From a virus, in the IMG/VR virus record IMGVR_UViG_3300033183_000198, positions 1 through 26,802 of that record: a DNA stretch of 26,802 nucleotides. One strand, given 5' to 3'. A program made the translations under genes and the position numbers. Positions within the stretch are counted from its first letter, which is position 1, and each line of letters starts with the position of its first letter. Under the pieces are notes generated by a model. The model saw only the letters and a program-made list of their open reading frames with translations, was not told where the DNA came from and did no database searches. Positions 5,338 through 20,723 of the stretch are shown here, piece after piece.

Positions 5338-6939
5338 TTATACCCCGAATGCTGAACCAAATGAACCGCCACGCCTTTTAGCATCCAGAACGCCAGAAAC
5401 AGCCGCATTCTGTATTTGCGGCATCATATTCATCACTTCTGTTCTAACTGTTTGCGCTACGCCAGTGCTTAAATTGATAGTTTGGTTTACAGTTACACCG
5501 CCACCGCCATTAGGAATAATCTGCCCTGATGAATTAGGCACAAACATTTCTGCGCCTTGCTCACCCACTATGTAGGCTTTTCCTGCGCTAACTGCCCCAC
5601 CATTAGCCCTAAAGCCGCCAAACATAGCGGCAAATGGATTTCCACCACCACTGCCACCAAGCCCACTCATCAGGCTTCCTAAAGCCCTTTTAGCTGCCAT
5701 ACGCGCTAAATCAGATAAGATGCTGTTAGCCATACTGCGGAAAGCATCCTTTGCGGACATTGTGCCAGTAACCATACCAGCAAAACTATCTTCTAAACGA
5801 CCTAGACCATCGATAGCCATTCTTTCTGTCGCAGATTTCATATCTTTAGATGCTTCGATATATTGCTCGAAAGCTGTTTTGCTGCGCTCGCCTAGATTTG
5901 TAATCTTGTTTCCGATTTCATCATAGGTGACAGGAACGGCTACCATAGCGTCTCTTAGCTTTTTAAATTCTTCTGCGCTTAATCTGGTGCTTTTAGCCAC
6001 TTCTTCAATTGGGTGTACCATCCCAACATTAGCGCGAGCCAATCCTTCCGCGCCTTCTGTAGTCTTTTCCAGATTAGCAATCATGCGTTCAAGGTCTGCA
6101 TTTAGCTGCTCGCCAAATGTAAACTCTTGCATTTCAACGCCAACAAAATTAGCCAATTCTACTAATTCATTTAAAAAGTTTCTAATGCCTAAAGTAGCTA
6201 CATTAATAACTTTCAAAACATTAGTTAAAACAAATTGCGCGAAAGCTGCTAAAGGCGGCAAAACAACGGCTGTTATTTGCTGACCGATAGATGTTAGCAC
6301 CTTGCTCAACATATCAAATCTATCATTAGCAGCTTCAACAGCTTTTGCCTGCTCGCCAGTCAATTCCATAGTTACTGCGTTAAATGATTTCTGCAAATCC
6401 ATCAAAACGCCAGAGCCACCTTGCAGAAGGTTTAGAAGGTTAGTGCCTGACCGCCCTAATAAATCATATGCTATCCTAACCCTGTCGGCTTGATTTGGAA
6501 CGCCCTGCAAAGCATCGGCAACTTCCAACAATAAATCGTTTGTGGATTTTAAGCTGCCATCCTGATTTTTTAAGGTAATGCCTAATTCATCAAAAGAGCG
6601 TTTGGCGATGCCTGTGCCAAGATTGGTTTCAGAAATAACCCTGCTAAATCTGTCCAGTGCTTTATTCAGTGTATCCGCTTCCGCACCAGTCTGCGCTGCC
6701 GCAAACTGTAAACTTTGAAGCTGATTAACTGTTAAACCAATTCTGGCTGATTGCTTTGCTAATTCATCAATCTGTGATGAAAAGCCTTTTAAAGCCACGC
6801 CAGCACCTAAAGCGGCTAGGGCTGTTCTGACGTTGCCTATGGATTTGCCTACGCGCCCCAGACCAGAGCGCACAGATGAAAAGGCCTGCCGCGTTTTGTC
6901 GATGGCTGTTAACTGAATTTTAAGATTTTGGTCTGCCAT
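5338..6939 (-). CDS. Tail tape measure protein, lambda H-like
   Basis: This 533-residue tape measure protein starts with a basic, coiled N-terminus (IDKTRQAFSSVRSGLGRVGKS). A central hydrophobic stretch near residues 213-257 could be membrane-active. The C-terminus is the lambda/TMP type: GGAVSAGKAYIVGEQGAEMF, then VPNSSGQIIPNGGG. Tape measures fix tail length and leave the virion during DNA injection. At roughly 1.5 angstrom per residue this predicts a fairly short tail near 80 nm. The start overlaps the end of the frameshifted chaperone extension in another frame, the usual G/GT/H arrangement. Confidence 0.9.
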   Translation of the reverse strand: MADQNLKIQLTAIDKTRQAFSSVRSGLGRVGKSIGNVRTALAALGAGVALKGFSSQIDELAKQSARIGLTVNQLQSLQFAAAQTGAEADTLNKALDRFSRVISETNLGTGIAKRSFDELGITLKNQDGSLKSTNDLLLEVADALQGVPNQADRVRIAYDLLGRSGTNLLNLLQGGSGVLMDLQKSFNAVTMELTGEQAKAVEAANDRFDMLSKVLTSIGQQITAVVLPPLAAFAQFVLTNVLKVINVATLGIRNFLNELVELANFVGVEMQEFTFGEQLNADLERMIANLEKTTEGAEGLARANVGMVHPIEEVAKSTRLSAEEFKKLRDAMVAVPVTYDEIGNKITNLGERSKTAFEQYIEASKDMKSATERMAIDGLGRLEDSFAGMVTGTMSAKDAFRSMANSILSDLARMAAKRALGSLMSGLGGSGGGNPFAAMFGGFRANGGAVSAGKAYIVGEQGAEMFVPNSSGQIIPNGGGGVTVNQTINLSTGVAQTVRTEVMNMMPQIQNAAVSGVLDAKRRGGSFGSAFGV

Positions 6940-7407
6940 CTTTTGTCACCTTAAAATAAGCCATCCACTCATTAAACTCTGAAAGGCTTAATTCTTCTAT
7001 CTCGCCCTGAGTTTTGTGTAAACGATCCGCCAAAGCCATCATGTTTAGCCTTAACGGATCGCCCTTTAGTTTTTTTCCTGTTGCTCCACGCTTTCTATAT
7101 CGCCAAACATTTTGCCAGCGATATCTGCGATGAGGCTGACAGGCTCGCGCATCAGAACTGGTTTATCTTCCAGCGTAAATACGCGTTCACCGTCTTTTGT
7201 TTCTGCTTTTGCGATAATCAGGTCAATCATGCCTGCGATGGTCATGTTATTGAGAAAATCTTTATGCTTTCTCTGTAATCTGTCCATATCGCCTGCTGTA
7301 ATCGCTCCAACATACAAAAGAACTGGCGCATCATCGCCCCATTCGGGAACTTCGATAACGCGCCTATCTTTATTGCGCTTAGACGCAATCTGATTAGCAA
7401 TAGACAT
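6920..7407 (-). CDS. Tail assembly chaperone GT, made by -1 frameshifting
   Basis: This is the long product of the chaperone gene: codons 1-113 in frame 0, then a -1 shift at the slippery heptamer A AAA AAC (7075-7069), directly before the TAA. The new frame adds 49 residues, beginning LKGDPLRLNMMALADRLHKT and containing the segment ELSLSEFNEWMAYF. That segment is typical of T-type extensions in siphophage chaperones (DUF4035-like). The extension ends at 6920, inside the tape measure start. A 7-bp stem lies 7 nt after the slip site. In lambda, gpGT recruits tail tube subunits onto the tape measure. Most ribosomes should stop at G. The signal is seen directly, and its use is inferred from the family. 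Confidence 0.85.
7023..7075 (-). promoter_or_regulatory. Programmed -1 frameshift signal: slippery A AAA AAC plus stem
   Basis: On the minus strand the codons GAA AAA AAC TAA contain the heptamer A AAA AAC at 7075-7069, in the correct register for tandem -1 slippage. A spacer of 7 nt (7068-7062) follows. Next comes a perfect 7-bp inverted repeat, CGATCCG (7061-7055) and CGGATCG (7029-7023), separated by 25 nt that could take part in a pseudoknot. Heptamer, spacer length and stem match a canonical frameshift element. Confidence 0.85.
7066..7407 (-). CDS. Tail assembly chaperone G (short product)
   Basis: This 113-residue protein (MSIANQIASKRNKDRRVIEV) lies between the tail tube and tape measure genes, the invariant position of siphophage tail chaperone G. 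It is compact and charged with no transmembrane segment, and has the phrase VLLYVGAITAGDMDRLQRKH seen in G-type chaperones of proteobacterial phages. It ends EQQEKN-stop, where the AAAAAAC codons form the slippery site. The chaperone coats the tape measure during assembly and is absent from the virion. The assignment is strong because of the gene order and the frameshift signal. Confidence 0.88.
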   Translation of the reverse strand: MSIANQIASKRNKDRRVIEVPEWGDDAPVLLYVGAITAGDMDRLQRKHKDFLNNMTIAGMIDLIIAKAETKDGERVFTLEDKPVLMREPVSLIADIAGKMFGDIESVEQQEKN

Positions 7408-8999: not shown

Positions 9000-11324
9000 T
9001 TAGGCATCGATGTCCAAGCAAGCCGCAAATGACTGTGCATGACGAACAGCGATATCCATTTCCTGCATCACGCGGATACGAACCGCGCCTGATGAGCCTG
9101 CTGTGTAAGGGTCAATCAGGATGTCAGGTGTAGAGAAGAAGCCCATCATCAACTGCGAGAAATCACCGAAGATCATAGCTGACAACGCTGTACCTGAGCC
9201 TTTGGTCAGGTCAGATGGTACGTTGTTGGTGATTGCCAAGTTGTAACCATACAGGCTATTCCAAGGCGCATCCAACAGCATAACGCTATCGGTAGAAGCC
9301 ACTTTAGCAGTAGATGCCATCAGTGATTTTACTTTCGGATTTGTCAGGTATGCCAATGAATTGCCGTTGATGGCTGCATTATCAATCTCAACTTCTTTAA
9401 CGAGATTTACAATGTCATCCCACGCAATCGCGCCACCGTTTGTACCGATAGCAACAGAACCGATGCCAGTAGTACCAGTGATGCCTGTAGGCTCATTAGA
9501 GCCGCCACCTTCGATAGCTACATCTTCAATCTTCTGTGCGATGCTGTTCAACAGGTCATCACGTACAATCTGCTCAACAGATGGGTCAGATTGGATCATC
9601 AGCAGGCGTGAAACGTCTGTAAACGCGCCCAGTGATTTAGGTGACATTGTAATCTGAGAGAAAACAGCGTTCACTTCACTGGTAGCACCATTCTCTGCTA
9701 CGAAACCAGCAGAAACGCCAGTTGCCAGCTTTGGAATAGCTACATCGCCTTTAAGGCCAGACATTACGCGAGAGCCTAATTCTGAGAAAACCAAACGAGC
9801 GCGCAGCGCGTCTACAAACTCATTTCCTAGATGCTCAGTAGGGCGCAGAAAACCACCAGCACTATCTGTGCCAACGGTCAAATCACGCTTGCCAGTCCAG
9901 AACTGGTCAGGGGCGTAGAAGCCGCGAGCCTCGCGACCAGAACGCTTTGCGATTTCTTCTGAAACCTCGCGCTCCAAGCCTTGCAGGCCAGAACCATTTA
10001 CCAGACCGCGTACAGCTTTCATAAAGCTATAATCGCGCTGCTCTTTTGCAGACATATCAACCGCGCCAGCAGATTGCTCTAGCGGTGTGCCTTCGCCAAT
10101 AGCGTCCAGCAGAACGCCACGGAACTGCTCAACAGAAAGGCCATCACCAATAGCTTTATCGGCTAGGTCGCGTCTGTTGTGCTTTTGTGCTAGCTTGATG
10201 ATTTCGCCAGCATTTTTTTGGAAATCGCGCTTGGCTGCTTCTGATGCTGCCTCGCGGATTTCATCCACATTTACATCTGTCATTTTTGGAGTTTCCTTCA
10301 CTTCTATGACCGTTTTTGTTTCAGCACTGCGATTAACGCCCACGCCTGCATCGGCAGGAACGCTCACAATACTAGCTTCGTATGGCATCCAAGAATTAAC
10401 AGAAACAGTGCCTGCCCTGTCGTTCTTAGCGTCCATATTGCGGATTTGGTAACCGATGCTGACGTTGCTTCTGATACCATCCTTAACGTCATCGTAAATC
10501 TCTCTAGCAAGCGCACCTTTTCCAAAGCGCACCACCGCCCGTAGTCTGCGGTCGGTTTTATCAAGATATGTCCGTTCGATAACGCCAATCTGTTTAGTTA
10601 AATCGTGGTCTAGCAGCAAAGGTGCATGACCAGAATTTAACCGCGATAAATCTATAGCATCTTCGCTATGCTCTAAAACTTCTAGCCCGAATGAACGCTC
10701 GACAGGTTCTTCTGATGATAAAGACATTCGCACCCTGCGATCATCTTCATCCACCATTTCCCCATCAGCCGCCCGATAATTAAGCGCAGAACGGTCTAAC
10801 CGTTCTTCTTTATCTTCTTTATCATAAGGCCGCATTTCTTCGGTATGCTTTTCAAATGTAACTGTATAAGTTTCATCTGTTTCAGTTACATCAATAATAT
10901 GCCTGTTTTCCATATCATCACCCTCTACATCTAGGGTCATATTATCAGAATTTATTTCGTTTGTCATATCGCGATCACCTTCATCGATGCGGTCAAGCGC
11001 AGCGTCTTTTGCCCTTGCCCAAGTTTGGCCTGCATCACCGCCCCACGCTGCCCACGCTACGCGGCCTTTTGATGGATAGCCTTCTTCGCCTGCGCTAAAC
11101 CCTTCGGCCTGTTTATCCACTTCATGCCTGCTAAAAAAGCTATGCATTCTGCGTACTGTTTCGGCTGACAATTCCTGACGGTTTACTAACTGACGCGCTC
11201 TGGCTACAGCTACAGCAGTGCCGCCCTGCTCACCTTCTTTGCGCCAATCCAGAAACTTCTGCGCTTCGGCTGCCATTCCCTCTGTAGGCTTTAAGCTGAT
11301 TTCTACGCCTTTATACGTTGCCAT
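9000..11324 (-). CDS. Prohead protease-major capsid protein fusion (HK97 fold)
   Basis: This 774-residue polyprotein has three parts. Residues 1-115 are a domain often found upstream of phage proteases (FFSRHEVDKQ, GRVAWAAWGGDAGQTW). Residues about 195-335 are an HK97-type prohead protease: SGHAPLLLDHD (H233, H240) and SNVSIGY (S289) hold the likely catalytic His and Ser, and EASIVSVPADAGV closes the domain. Residues about 345-460 are helical and scaffold-like. From about 480 to the end is the HK97-fold capsid, with GGFLRPTEHLG and AIEGGGSNEPTGITG-type motifs. Protease, scaffold and capsid are usually separate genes. Here the protease must release the capsid by self-processing. The start overlaps the portal gene by 14 nt, with ribosome binding site AGGAAGA. 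Confidence 0.9.
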   Translation of the reverse strand: MATYKGVEISLKPTEGMAAEAQKFLDWRKEGEQGGTAVAVARARQLVNRQELSAETVRRMHSFFSRHEVDKQAEGFSAGEEGYPSKGRVAWAAWGGDAGQTWARAKDAALDRIDEGDRDMTNEINSDNMTLDVEGDDMENRHIIDVTETDETYTVTFEKHTEEMRPYDKEDKEERLDRSALNYRAADGEMVDEDDRRVRMSLSSEEPVERSFGLEVLEHSEDAIDLSRLNSGHAPLLLDHDLTKQIGVIERTYLDKTDRRLRAVVRFGKGALAREIYDDVKDGIRSNVSIGYQIRNMDAKNDRAGTVSVNSWMPYEASIVSVPADAGVGVNRSAETKTVIEVKETPKMTDVNVDEIREAASEAAKRDFQKNAGEIIKLAQKHNRRDLADKAIGDGLSVEQFRGVLLDAIGEGTPLEQSAGAVDMSAKEQRDYSFMKAVRGLVNGSGLQGLEREVSEEIAKRSGREARGFYAPDQFWTGKRDLTVGTDSAGGFLRPTEHLGNEFVDALRARLVFSELGSRVMSGLKGDVAIPKLATGVSAGFVAENGATSEVNAVFSQITMSPKSLGAFTDVSRLLMIQSDPSVEQIVRDDLLNSIAQKIEDVAIEGGGSNEPTGITGTTGIGSVAIGTNGGAIAWDDIVNLVKEVEIDNAAINGNSLAYLTNPKVKSLMASTAKVASTDSVMLLDAPWNSLYGYNLAITNNVPSDLTKGSGTALSAMIFGDFSQLMMGFFSTPDILIDPYTAGSSGAVRIRVMQEMDIAVRHAQSFAACLDIDA

Positions 11325-13381: not shown

Positions 13382-15271
13382 TTACCGCCAGCCATTCACA
13401 AAACCGCCCGATGGGCGTGGTCTAAAGACAGGATTATTTTGCACTTGCGGTTGCTTCGGCTTTTCTGGCTCTGCTGGTGCATTTGCAATCCTATCCGCAA
13501 TATCATTTAGCCGCAGTGACAATATCGACAATGCGGCATAAGCATAAACGCGGCAATCAAGTGCCTCATTTCTGGCGCGTGTTTTGACAAATTCCCTGCG
13601 CGGAAAGCCTTTATGATATTTAGTGACAATCTTTTCAGATGCTGCCAACTGTTTAAAATATTCATCATCGCGCCCTGTAGGGAAGTGACAATACCCTGCC
13701 CCTGCGATTGTAACCTTTAAGCGGCTAAAAATCAATTCCTTGATGTTGTCAACGCCTATAGTGAATAATTTGATTTTTCCGATATTGTTTCTAGTCGGCT
13801 TGCTGACAATAGGGCGTGTTTCCCCTGCCATACCCTTTATCGCAAAAATGCGCTTGCCTTCGCGCGGCCTGACATAGTTATAAACGGCTTGCGTATAATG
13901 ACCGCCACTATCGATGCAGGCTGACCGAATGCCTAGCTGCCTGCCATCTTCTGTTTCATAGATAGCATTTAAGCGGTTATCTAAATCATTCCATAAATGC
14001 GGTGTAGATGGGTCACCATAAAGCTGTATCCAATCGATAGACCAGCTTTCTTCATCCCTGCCCCAGCCCACTATCTCTAAGGCTAGATAGCTATCCTGAA
14101 CGTCAATGCCTGCTGTAATACATACGATGCCACTGTCTAGCTTTTCATCAAATTCCTCTACGCGCTCAGAAACAGCGTAATCATCAACGCGCTCACCCAT
14201 TTCCTCATAGGTTTCTGCTAAATAGGTGTTTACAAAAACGCGTAAAGTATCCGGCAGCTTTTTAGCCTGTAAAAACTCTTTTGCCGCACGTTCTAGGCTT
14301 GTCCATACTGAATAAATCCCATTTAGATGAAAGCCTGCTGTTCCTGTAAAGGGCGCGGTGGCAATCCATTCACCGTAGCGGATAGCGCGTAAACGCTTCG
14401 CCTCATCCCATAAGCTACCGCAATCCTCGCACATATACGCAGCCGTCTCCGGCTTTCCTTCATCCCATCTTACATCCGACCATTTTAAGGTTTGCTTATG
14501 ACCGCAATCGGGGCAAGGTACAAAATACTGGCGTTGATCGCTTTCCTGATAGGCCGCTTCTATTCTTGATGCGCCTTTATTGGTCGGAGTGCTAACCATC
14601 ACAATTTTTCGGTTATAGCTAAAGGTTTTCGTTCTAGCCCTAGCCAAATCAATCGGATCACCCTCAGAGCCAGCCGATATAGGGTATCTATCCACCTCAT
14701 CAAGAAATACGCACCGCACTGGCCTAGATGCCAGCCCAGCCGCACTATTTGCGCCCACTATCGCTATATAGCCGCCTGCAAATGATTTCTGGTAAATAGT
14801 GTTGCCGCTATCGCGCGTCCTAGCATCGGCAACCGCATTTTTCAGAACAGGCGTATCGCGTAGCATAGGGGCTAGTCTATCGTTAGACCACATCTTAGCC
14901 ATTTCTAATGTCGGCTGCACTACAAGCATAGGCGATGGCTGGTTATCAATATAATACCCTATCGCATTGTTTATTATTTCTGTCTTGCCTACCTGTGCGC
15001 CTGTCATAAAAACTACGTTTTCAATAGTAGGGTCGCTAATAGCTTGCATCATGCCGCGCTGGTAGGCTGCGCGGTTTGTACTCCAATGCCCTGCCTCTGC
15101 TGATGCCTCTGGCGATAATCTTCTATATTGGTCTGCCCATTCATCCAGTTTTAGGTCTGTCGGCGGCTTCATCGCGTTGAATGTTGCCTGTGCTATCCTC
15201 ATCGCTGTCGGATGCGCGGATAGGCTGACTGACCTTGACTTCGATGTCTGCGATTTCTTGTAAGGCATCAT
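13382..15271 (-). CDS. Terminase large subunit, lambda gpA family
   Basis: This 629-residue packaging motor and nuclease shows an ATPase with a Walker A-like TGAQVGKTE (residues 90-98) and Walker B CVFLDEVDRYP (D191, E192). A zinc-ribbon insertion CPDCG...CEDCG (C253, C256, C281, C284) is typical of GpA. The nuclease has TAGIDVQDSYLALE (D390, D393), CIDSGGHYT (D454) and NEALDCRVYAYAA (E569, D572). It translocates DNA into the prohead and cuts at genome ends. The chosen start overlaps the small subunit gene by 131 nt and has ACAGG 6 nt before its second ATG. A shorter start at residue 24 (15202) lacks a ribosome binding site but is possible. Confidence 0.95.
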   Translation of the reverse strand: MMPYKKSQTSKSRSVSLSAHPTAMRIAQATFNAMKPPTDLKLDEWADQYRRLSPEASAEAGHWSTNRAAYQRGMMQAISDPTIENVVFMTGAQVGKTEIINNAIGYYIDNQPSPMLVVQPTLEMAKMWSNDRLAPMLRDTPVLKNAVADARTRDSGNTIYQKSFAGGYIAIVGANSAAGLASRPVRCVFLDEVDRYPISAGSEGDPIDLARARTKTFSYNRKIVMVSTPTNKGASRIEAAYQESDQRQYFVPCPDCGHKQTLKWSDVRWDEGKPETAAYMCEDCGSLWDEAKRLRAIRYGEWIATAPFTGTAGFHLNGIYSVWTSLERAAKEFLQAKKLPDTLRVFVNTYLAETYEEMGERVDDYAVSERVEEFDEKLDSGIVCITAGIDVQDSYLALEIVGWGRDEESWSIDWIQLYGDPSTPHLWNDLDNRLNAIYETEDGRQLGIRSACIDSGGHYTQAVYNYVRPREGKRIFAIKGMAGETRPIVSKPTRNNIGKIKLFTIGVDNIKELIFSRLKVTIAGAGYCHFPTGRDDEYFKQLAASEKIVTKYHKGFPRREFVKTRARNEALDCRVYAYAALSILSLRLNDIADRIANAPAEPEKPKQPQVQNNPVFRPRPSGGFVNGWR

Positions 15272-15695
15272 AAACCTGTTCTTTTAGAATGTTTTTAACT
15301 TCTACTAGATTTTCTGCCGCGAAACATTCTGGCGCGGCTCTTTGTGGCAGCGATAACATCTTCTGCCGCATATTTTGGCTAACTTCTATCCAAACTTTTT
15401 CTACGTCGCTGGATGGGATTAGCTGTTCTTCTATCTGCGCCTTTTCCATTTCAGCCATATCTGCTTTAGCTTTTGTTAGGCGTGTTCGGTGCGCGTTATA
15501 ATCATCACCGCTAACATCTGACCGTATACCACGCTCTCGCAGATATTTTATATAGGCTCTAACTACAGGCACTAATTCATAACGCCCACGCTCTTTACGC
15601 GGTATTATGCCTTCATTTACTAGCTGCGTTACTCGCTGCGGTGTTAAATCTAGCAGTTTCGATATTGTATCAAGCGGAAACGTCTGCGCTGCCAT
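15141..15695 (-). CDS. Terminase small subunit, Nu1-like
   Basis: This 184-residue protein opens with a winged-helix DNA-binding motif of the Nu1 type (TISKLLDLTPQRVTQLVNEG, IIPRKERGRYELVPVVRAYI). A helical region with a KADMAEMEKAQIEEQLIPSS linker follows, then a helical oligomerisation and large-subunit-binding segment (NMRQKMLSLPQRAAPECF). Nu1 proteins recognise the packaging site and recruit the large subunit. The last 25 residues are low-complexity, acidic and encoded within the overlap with the large subunit gene. It overlaps the methyltransferase gene by 26 nt. Confidence 0.9.
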   Translation of the reverse strand: MAAQTFPLDTISKLLDLTPQRVTQLVNEGIIPRKERGRYELVPVVRAYIKYLRERGIRSDVSGDDYNAHRTRLTKAKADMAEMEKAQIEEQLIPSSDVEKVWIEVSQNMRQKMLSLPQRAAPECFAAENLVEVKNILKEQVYDALQEIADIEVKVSQPIRASDSDEDSTGNIQRDEAADRPKTG

Positions 15696-16935
15696 TTACC
15701 ATCTCATCAAATGTTTTGCCTGTTTCAGCGTGTATAGCTTTCCGGCCTGTGTAGTCCTGCCAGCGTTTAACTATGACATCGACATATTTAGGGTCTAAAT
15801 CCATAAGCCTAGCTTTCCGGCCTGTTTTTTCGCAGGCTATTAATGTAGAGCCGCTGCCGCCAAAAACGTCAAGAACTATATCCCCACCTTTGCTGCTGTT
15901 TTTCAATGCTCTTTCAATTAGCTCTACAGGTTTTTGCGTAGGATGAACATATTCTGCTGTTGCGCCCCTGCTCATATACCAAACATCACTCTCGCTTTTG
16001 TCTCCATACCAGCTACCGCCCTTAACGTAGAAAATAAATTCATGCTGCGGTCTGTAGTTGGCATTTCCTAAACCAATGCTTTTTTTATCCCAAACTATAC
16101 AATTTGCCACAGTACCGCCCCCAAGCTGTATAGCTTCCTCAAATTCGCTATAAGTACGCCAAGTGAAACAAATATAGTAAGCCGCACCCTGTTTAGAAGA
16201 TTGTATGCATAAAGCTATTGCATCCCGAACTAGGCTAATAAGGCTATCGCCTTCTAGATCATCGTTTATAATCATGCCGTGAGCTTTTACTAAAGCCCCT
16301 TTAGAAGTAGAGCCAGCTGCGCGACCACCGCCATAGCTCATGCCATAAGGTGGGTCAGTAAAAACCATATCGGCTTGCTGGTTTTCCATTAGCTTGTCTA
16401 CCGCATCTATGCTGGTGCTATCTCCGCACATAACGCGATGCTGATCTAGTTTCCATACATCGCCAATAACGCTAACAGGCTTTTCAGGCTCATCCGGCAC
16501 TTGGTCATCATCGACCAGCCCTTCTTCTACCGCGTCTGCCAAAAGGTCGGCTAACTCTTTATCATCAAAACCAGTTAGCGATAAATCGAAATCCGCGTCT
16601 TTTAGCTCTTGAAGCTCTATCTTTAGCATTTCATCATTCCAGCCAGCATTTAAGGCTAGTTTATTGTCTGCTATAACGTATGCCTGCTTTTGTGCATCGG
16701 TTAAATGAGACAGCCTGATACAAGGTATCTCTTTCATTTGCAGGCGGTGCGCTGCCATCGTTCTGCCGTGGCCTGCTATAATAACATCATCAGCATCTAT
16801 TAAAACTGGATTGGTAAACCCAAACTCGTTGATACTGCTACAAATTTGCGCTACTTGCTCATCAGAATGAGTGCGGCTATTTCTAGCATAGGGTATCAGT
16901 TTTTCGGTAGGTATATATTCTATTTTCTGTTTCAA
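15670..16935 (-). CDS. ParB-like domain fused to DNA adenine/cytosine-N4 methyltransferase
   Basis: This 421-residue fusion has residues about 5-95 forming a ParB/Srx-like nuclease-fold domain (IPYARNSRTHSDEQVAQICS, then GHGRTMAAHRL). Residues about 155-400 are an amino-methyltransferase with TDPPYG (193-198, motif IV), HPTQKP (331-336) and DVFGGSGST (356-364, SAM-binding motif I). Motif IV precedes motif I, which fits a beta-class N6-adenine or N4-cytosine enzyme. It likely protects phage DNA from host restriction or marks it for packaging. No matching restriction nuclease is evident. The start is TTG (16935-16933), supported by AAAGGGA 7 nt upstream and the good ParB N-terminus. It lies directly upstream of the terminase genes. 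Confidence 0.92.
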   Translation of the reverse strand: MKQKIEYIPTEKLIPYARNSRTHSDEQVAQICSSINEFGFTNPVLIDADDVIIAGHGRTMAAHRLQMKEIPCIRLSHLTDAQKQAYVIADNKLALNAGWNDEMLKIELQELKDADFDLSLTGFDDKELADLLADAVEEGLVDDDQVPDEPEKPVSVIGDVWKLDQHRVMCGDSTSIDAVDKLMENQQADMVFTDPPYGMSYGGGRAAGSTSKGALVKAHGMIINDDLEGDSLISLVRDAIALCIQSSKQGAAYYICFTWRTYSEFEEAIQLGGGTVANCIVWDKKSIGLGNANYRPQHEFIFYVKGGSWYGDKSESDVWYMSRGATAEYVHPTQKPVELIERALKNSSKGGDIVLDVFGGSGSTLIACEKTGRKARLMDLDPKYVDVIVKRWQDYTGRKAIHAETGKTFDEMVNGSADVSA

Positions 16936-20229: not shown

Positions 20230-20421
20230 CTAATCTCTCCACTTCCCACCGCGCCTTTTCATAGACGCTTTGACGCTGTGCGCTGATAAAACTGCGCTGT
20301 TCCAATTTGGATTGCGATAGTGATTTGTATCTTCACGCACTCTGGCATCAAATAACGCCTCGCGCTGCTTTTTAAGATGCGCCTCAAATTCTGCAATCGT
20401 CATATTAATTGCTGTTTTCAT
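20230..20421 (-). CDS. Unknown small basic protein, 63 aa
   Basis: This 63-residue basic helical protein contains MTIAEFEAHLKKQREALFDA and HSVKASMKRRGGKWRD. The basic tail could bind nucleic acid. I do not recognise it. It lies between two nuclease-like genes in the operon, with an ATGA overlap upstream and no gap downstream, which supports it being a real gene. Confidence 0.65.
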   Translation of the reverse strand: MKTAINMTIAEFEAHLKKQREALFDARVREDTNHYRNPNWNSAVLSAHSVKASMKRRGGKWRD

Positions 20422-20723
20422 AGCTTCCCTGCCAGTAAATTTAGAAAATCTTCATAATCGATAACCGCTAGCGGCTTTTTGCGGTCAGCACCAATAACAA
20501 GCGCATCAGCCCCTTCGATATTCTGGTAAATAAAAGCAAAGCCATTAGCACGTTTCTTTGCCTCTATCTCCCATACTTCGCGGCCTATCTTAATATGCAC
20601 ATCATTTTTGATGCTGCCAGCACCACTCAGAGGCACTCTAAATGCCTCTAAGCCGTGTTTTTGGGCTATCTCTACAAGCTGCCGTTCAAAGCGGCTACCC
20701 TTTTCTTTATTCCGATTTGGCAT
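20418..20723 (-). CDS. Holliday junction resolvase-like nuclease (Hjc/PD-(D/E)XK)
   Basis: This 101-residue protein opens MPNRNKEKGSRFERQLVEIA (E13 in the first helix), then FRVPLSGAGSIKNDVHIKIG (D41) and REVWEIEAKKRANGF (E54-x-K56). The spacing E-D-ExK with the PLSGAG loop is typical of Hjc-like and phage RusA-alternative resolvases of the PD-(D/E)XK class. Such enzymes resolve recombination or replication junctions before packaging, which fits a phage with an ERF annealase. A clear ribosome binding site AAAGGGG precedes the ATG within the upstream gene. Confidence 0.75.
   Translation of the reverse strand: MPNRNKEKGSRFERQLVEIAQKHGLEAFRVPLSGAGSIKNDVHIKIGREVWEIEAKKRANGFAFIYQNIEGADALVIGADRKKPLAVIDYEDFLNLLAGKL

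Follow-up and report, generated by a model that had tools for sequence, protein, structure and literature searches.

The window (the whole stretch of DNA analysed, 26,802 nt of the IMG/VR virus record IMGVR_UViG_3300033183_000198) carries on its minus strand a gene, G (7066..7407), that encodes a protein of 113 aa and lies between the genes for the tail tube and the tape measure protein, with those for head closure and the tail terminator among its other neighbours. The tape measure gene (5338..6939, minus strand) starts with an ATG at 6939, and matches Tape_meas_lam_C (E 7e-10) and tape-measure PHROGs. G matches phrog_344 ('tail assembly chaperone') with E 5.7e-6, as do 43 of 50 G homologues. 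A search of PDB sequences with the G profile matched nothing relevant. An AlphaFold2 model of G (pLDDT 86) has the HK97 tail assembly chaperone 2OB9 as its top Foldseek match, and alignment of the two in VIA-align gave Z 9.2, with 3.6 Å over 96 residues. A zero-frame protein homologous to known chaperones, here by family and by predicted fold, and a location between the tube and tape measure genes are both characteristic of a G/GT pair. Elsewhere on the minus strand 11324..9000 is a single ORF of 774 aa in which a prohead serine protease (Peptidase_S78) is fused to an HK97-type capsid domain (Phage_capsid), and a methyltransferase gene (15670..16935; N6_N4_Mtase, with a ParB_N-like start) overlaps an ORF of 184 aa (15141..15695) that also overlaps the terminase gene.

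The 3' end of G reads ...CAG GAA AAA AAC TAA. It contains the slippery heptamer A_AAA_AAC (7075..7069, minus strand) in the correct register for a -1 slip, as the original prediction had pointed out, and this has the X_XXY_YYZ form of the -1 cassettes stimulated by a Shine-Dalgarno (SD) sequence, of the dnaX/IS911 type. Continuing in the -1 frame from the heptamer there are 49 open codons (6923..7069, minus strand) that would extend G into a GT fusion of 162 aa. The translation of this T extension is LKGDPLRLNMMALADRLHKTQGEIEELSLSEFNEWMAYFKVTKDGRPKS, with a stop at 6922..6920, so that it ends inside the start of the tape measure gene (an overlap of 20 nt); both the length and the end point are those originally predicted. 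The extension was also predicted to be T-like, and this is upheld by a match to phrog_337 (E 8.9e-6) that is shared by 28 of 30 T homologues and by lambda T itself (E 4.7e-7), i.e. the out-of-frame extension is conserved and homologous to T. The suggested comparison with DUF4035 was not fruitful, as T had no Pfam DUF4035 match and only a sub-threshold one to Phage_tail_T (E 0.024). The predicted model of T comprises three helices.

Relatives were gathered from viral contigs and phage records, and 149 distinct sequences were found with queries from this family, with G proteins that are about 27-97% identical to that of the window. The closest named phages are Roseobacter CRP-822-type isolates (45-55% identity in G and 57-60% in TerL), together with pelagiphages. 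A single-protein search of genome contigs gave a single partial match, in a Roseovarius MAG, that ends before the shift site. The -1 frame is open in all the relatives; the count gave two 'stops' in T, which were read as incomplete codons at contig ends. In 44 representatives pN/pS for the -1 frame is about 0.25, the silent sites being almost saturated, while the other two frames over the T region give 1.1 and 2.7 and contain 111 and 174 stops. This comparison of codons shows purifying selection on the T extension. An evolutionary remnant, with a weak site and a -1 frame that has decayed and lost its function, would be at odds with a frame that is open and under purifying selection in relatives down to about 27% identity, and we regard it as extremely improbable.

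The heptamer A_AAA_AAC is present in 149/149 distinct relatives and in 63/63 sequences of HTVC026P type, and A_AAA_AAG in 62/62 of HTVC112P type, these being counts of related sequences and not of independent events. Thus there is a conserved, in-register slippery site near the end of G, as found in G/GT pairs. Relatives without the heptamer and with a degraded -1 frame would have argued against a frameshift; instead all 149 retain the heptamer and have the frame open. The codon preceding AAA AAC is GAA, GCA, ACA, CTA, GTA or AAA among the relatives. Its third base is invariably A, so the first A of the heptamer has been kept through five changes of amino acid. A change of the final C to T would be silent in either frame (Asn AAC/AAT in the zero frame, Leu CTA/TTA in the -1 frame), yet T is never seen there; outside this codon, AAC accounts for about 51% of the Asn codons of G. 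The T extension always begins with CTA or CTG, the two Leu codons with which a stop is maintained in the zero frame, and Arg at the second T position is always encoded by AGR. The three tests at silent sites (codon -3, the final C and the first T codon) therefore point to selection acting on the nucleotides themselves, and on this sequence evidence the frameshift signal of the window's family is unusually well conserved.

When 27 minus-strand ORFs of the window were scanned, several contained in-register X_XXY_YYZ heptamers, but only in gene G is the heptamer 3 nt or less from the stop and followed by an extension beyond it. Because this combination is unique among the 27 ORFs and the heptamer is kept by all relatives, we do not consider it to have arisen by chance. 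Just one further heptamer in that scan leads into an extension beyond its stop, an A_AAT_TTA in a small ORF (20723..20418, minus strand), in register 18 nt before the stop and with 68 open codons in the -1 frame; this may be fortuitous.

Downstream of the heptamer the RNA is predicted to form a hairpin (7020..7064, minus strand) with a continuous stem of 19 bp, G-U pairs included (7064..7046 with 7038..7020), and a 7-nt loop (7045..7039). Its folding energy is -27.8 kcal/mol, with z -6.4 compared with 200 dinucleotide shuffles. The 7-nt spacer TAAAGGG and the arms CGATCCG/CGGATCG described previously are there, but the proposed 7-bp stem with a loop of 25 nt has to be revised, since that loop is itself paired to give the longer stem. 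Compared with recodings that preserve the -1 frame protein the z score is -3.7, and in 13/13 representatives of the window's lineage it lies between -2.1 and -5.4. Two pairs have changed on both sides, and 47/500 shuffles reach the same covariation score. As can be expected where both arms are coding, covariation does not decide the matter, and support for the hairpin comes from the folding energy. In the window's lineage the hairpin begins within the 4-10 nt of the heptamer that is typical of dnaX/IS911-type cassettes, but this is not so in the CRP and HTVC026P lineages. Outside the window's lineage this hairpin is not retained: most roseophage-type representatives have z near 0, a few (L181, L184 and L242) form another hairpin at a greater distance from the heptamer, and there is none in HTVC026P-type pelagiphages. 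An Rfam scan of the window gave no match. From these folding comparisons the 19-bp hairpin is lineage-specific, and roseophage and most pelagiphage relatives are without it.

The loop of the hairpin contains a potential start codon, and T might be a separate small gene of 40 aa that begins with the ATG at 7042..7040, its translation perhaps coupled to termination of G. There is an in-frame ATG-ATG in the loop with TAAGG 6 nt before it, and GAGG-6-ATG occurs in many members of its sublineage. However, the putative SD sequence sits in the stem, no position of the start codon is shared, and several representatives have no ATG, GTG or TTG in the first 30 T codons. Moreover, L1, P5, R7 and N9 of T are conserved, although they lie before the window's ATG and before any possible start, and a separate gene leaves the fixed heptamer unexplained. 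We therefore think a separate T gene very unlikely.

The original prediction made no mention of a purine block that lies upstream of the shift site. The SD-like sequence GGAG (7084..7087, minus strand) is 9 nt upstream of the heptamer, within the 6-17 nt over which such elements occur in dnaX/IS911-type cassettes, and is on this basis a candidate stimulator. Of the 149 relatives, 110 have GAG and 36 have GGG at codon -6; among 44 representatives GAG is found in 42, i.e. in 42 of the 43 that have Glu there, compared with GAG as 42% of the Glu codons elsewhere in G. Applying the rule of PMC4066793 (an SD-like element 6-17 nt upstream), 102/147 relatives have such an element, against 15.7% of in-phase positions inside G. 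The block is about 6-9 nt from the heptamer, which is closer than the 9-14 nt quoted in a review for -1 stimulation but still within the 6-17 nt range of PMC4066793. Sequences of HTVC112P type mostly have GAG GAA or GAG GAC at this position, and in those of HTVC026P type the SD-like element is absent.

The frame could also be changed at transcription, by slippage of RNA polymerase on the run of A to generate a mixed pool of mRNA. The window has A7, and 63/63 HTVC026P-type sequences, in which neither the SD-like element nor the hairpin is seen, have A9. Transcriptional realignment has been associated with A runs longer than 7 (PMC3711429), while the run in the window's family does not exceed 7 A (6 A in 25 and 7 A in 122 of 147), with 9 A found solely in the HTVC026P type. 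Nor does such slippage need a fixed silent C after the run or a hairpin downstream. For the window this explanation is likewise highly unlikely, but it may contribute in the HTVC026P-type sequences (L249-L328), given their invariant A9 and lack of hairpin and SD-like element.

The zero-frame stop (7066..7068, minus strand) directly adjoins the heptamer, a second feature absent from the original prediction. It abuts the heptamer in 274/274 distinct sequences from three lineages, again related sequences and not independent events. Following AAAAAAC it is TAA in 136 and TGA in 13 of the 149 relatives; the 63 distinct HTVC026P-type sequences have A_AAA_AAC then TAA, within the A9 run, and in the 62 of HTVC112P type TAG or TAA comes immediately after A_AAA_AAG. 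Most of the 149 relatives have a spare zero-frame stop 3-11 codons further on, so loss of the first stop would be cheap, and still it is never lost. Note that the abutment is not universal, since in Sinorhizobium phage phi3LM21 and the related L416 one sense codon separates A_AAA_AAC from the stop. In annotated SEA-PHAGES frameshifts the stop lies on average 26 nt away (PMC10885494), and in some dnaX genes the zero-frame stop directly follows the shift site (PMC5009743). Judged by their conservation, the abutting stop and the upstream SD-like element would both belong to the frameshift signal, and with the stop so constant, termination may have a part in the slip. A tentative extension of this, which we consider possible but doubtful, is that the stop is a working part of the signal, as a -1 'shifty stop' used in several lineages of abundant marine phages. 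With UAA, UGA or UAG in the A site, slow arrival of release factor would give time for the E- and P-site tRNAs to slip, and the G:GT ratio would then respond to the rate of termination. If true, a shifty stop would be combined with different sets of stimulators according to lineage, i.e. the hairpin, the SD-like block, both or neither.

Taking these observations together, gene G and the -1 frame of this marine phage very probably constitute a tail assembly chaperone pair of the lambda/HK97 type expressed by -1 ribosomal frameshifting, and the prediction of a G/GT pair is supported by sequence, structure, conservation and gene order. The signal, its conservation, the selection on the -1 frame and the family membership are seen directly, and the fold of G comes from a predicted model; from these we infer that slippage occurs and at what rate, what each stimulator contributes and what each domain does. 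Most ribosomes would read G and terminate at the TAA right after the heptamer. A minority would slip back by one base at A_AAA_AAC, with tRNA-Lys and tRNA-Asn re-pairing on AAA AAA, and continue for 49 codons to give GT. The long hairpin 4-7 nt downstream would probably aid slippage, as would SD-like pairing between 16S rRNA and the GGAG/GAGGA block. If the roles are analogous to those in lambda, G would coat the tape measure protein and the T part would bring in the tail tube protein, so that the ratio of G to GT matters. Lambda requires about 30:1 (PMC5009743), and two genes of an HK97-like chaperone cluster shifted 6-7% in an assay (PMC3711429).

The locus shares with lambda G/GT the gene order tube - G - T - tape measure, the -1 frame extension and membership of T in phrog_337. 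However, the lambda heptamer is G_GGA_AAG with the stop of G about 15 nt later, whereas here A_AAA_AAC abuts the stop; T has 49 aa compared with 144 in lambda, and there is the long hairpin. A -1 frameshift is annotated for gp13/gp14 of HK97, the fold of which (2OB9) is matched by the predicted G, but HK97 has no A6 heptamer, its stop is about 15 nt after GAA AAG, and the sequence identity is about 16%. In its three-part layout of upstream SD-like element, A6 heptamer and downstream stem-loop the signal resembles the E. coli dnaX and IS911 cassettes. These belong to different genes, the window's family has AAC rather than AAG, the SD-like element is nearer the heptamer here, and the frameshift product of E. 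coli dnaX is the shorter one, unlike GT. This is thus a known kind of system, its novelty lying in the present member and in the distinctive signal.

Homologous G, -1 frame T and the abutting stop are common to the named relatives, which differ in their stimulators. CRP-822-type roseophages have the SD-like block but no selected hairpin, HTVC026P-type pelagiphages have the A9 run and neither stimulator, and HTVC112P-type pelagiphages combine A_AAA_AAG with the SD-like block and a hairpin of 7 bp. On E. coli ribosomes A_AAA_AAC shifts less than A_AAA_AAG (PMC5009743; PMC4066793), and the pairing of the weaker heptamer with a long hairpin in the window's lineage and the stronger with a 7-bp hairpin in HTVC112P could suggest compensation. 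This natural series, with one site and its abutting stop, the hairpin or SD-like block present or absent, and AAC or AAG, could be used to ask how stimulators have been exchanged during evolution and whether an adjacent stop contributes to -1 slippage.

As anticipated, gene callers have missed the extension. T is annotated in none of the GenBank records examined, which are those of roseophages CRP-823/811/406/821 and of pelagiphages HTVC026P/202P/111P/112P and give G alone, and the word 'frameshift' is absent from the CRP paper (PMC12629253). The analysis thereby adds a missing protein to widespread roseophage- and pelagiphage-related marine phages whose records give only G. Over the T region of HTVC112P (L331, 1006-1152) and HTVC111P (L332, 1006-1158) GenBank has a minus-strand 'hypothetical protein' that is probably spurious. 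Around the end of G in a distant relative, Marine virus AG-345-A17 (L334), the T-like sequence NQWKFLYSLAKELGKTVAE is apparently in the +1/-2 frame with respect to G and there is no A6 heptamer, a possible switch in the direction of the shift.
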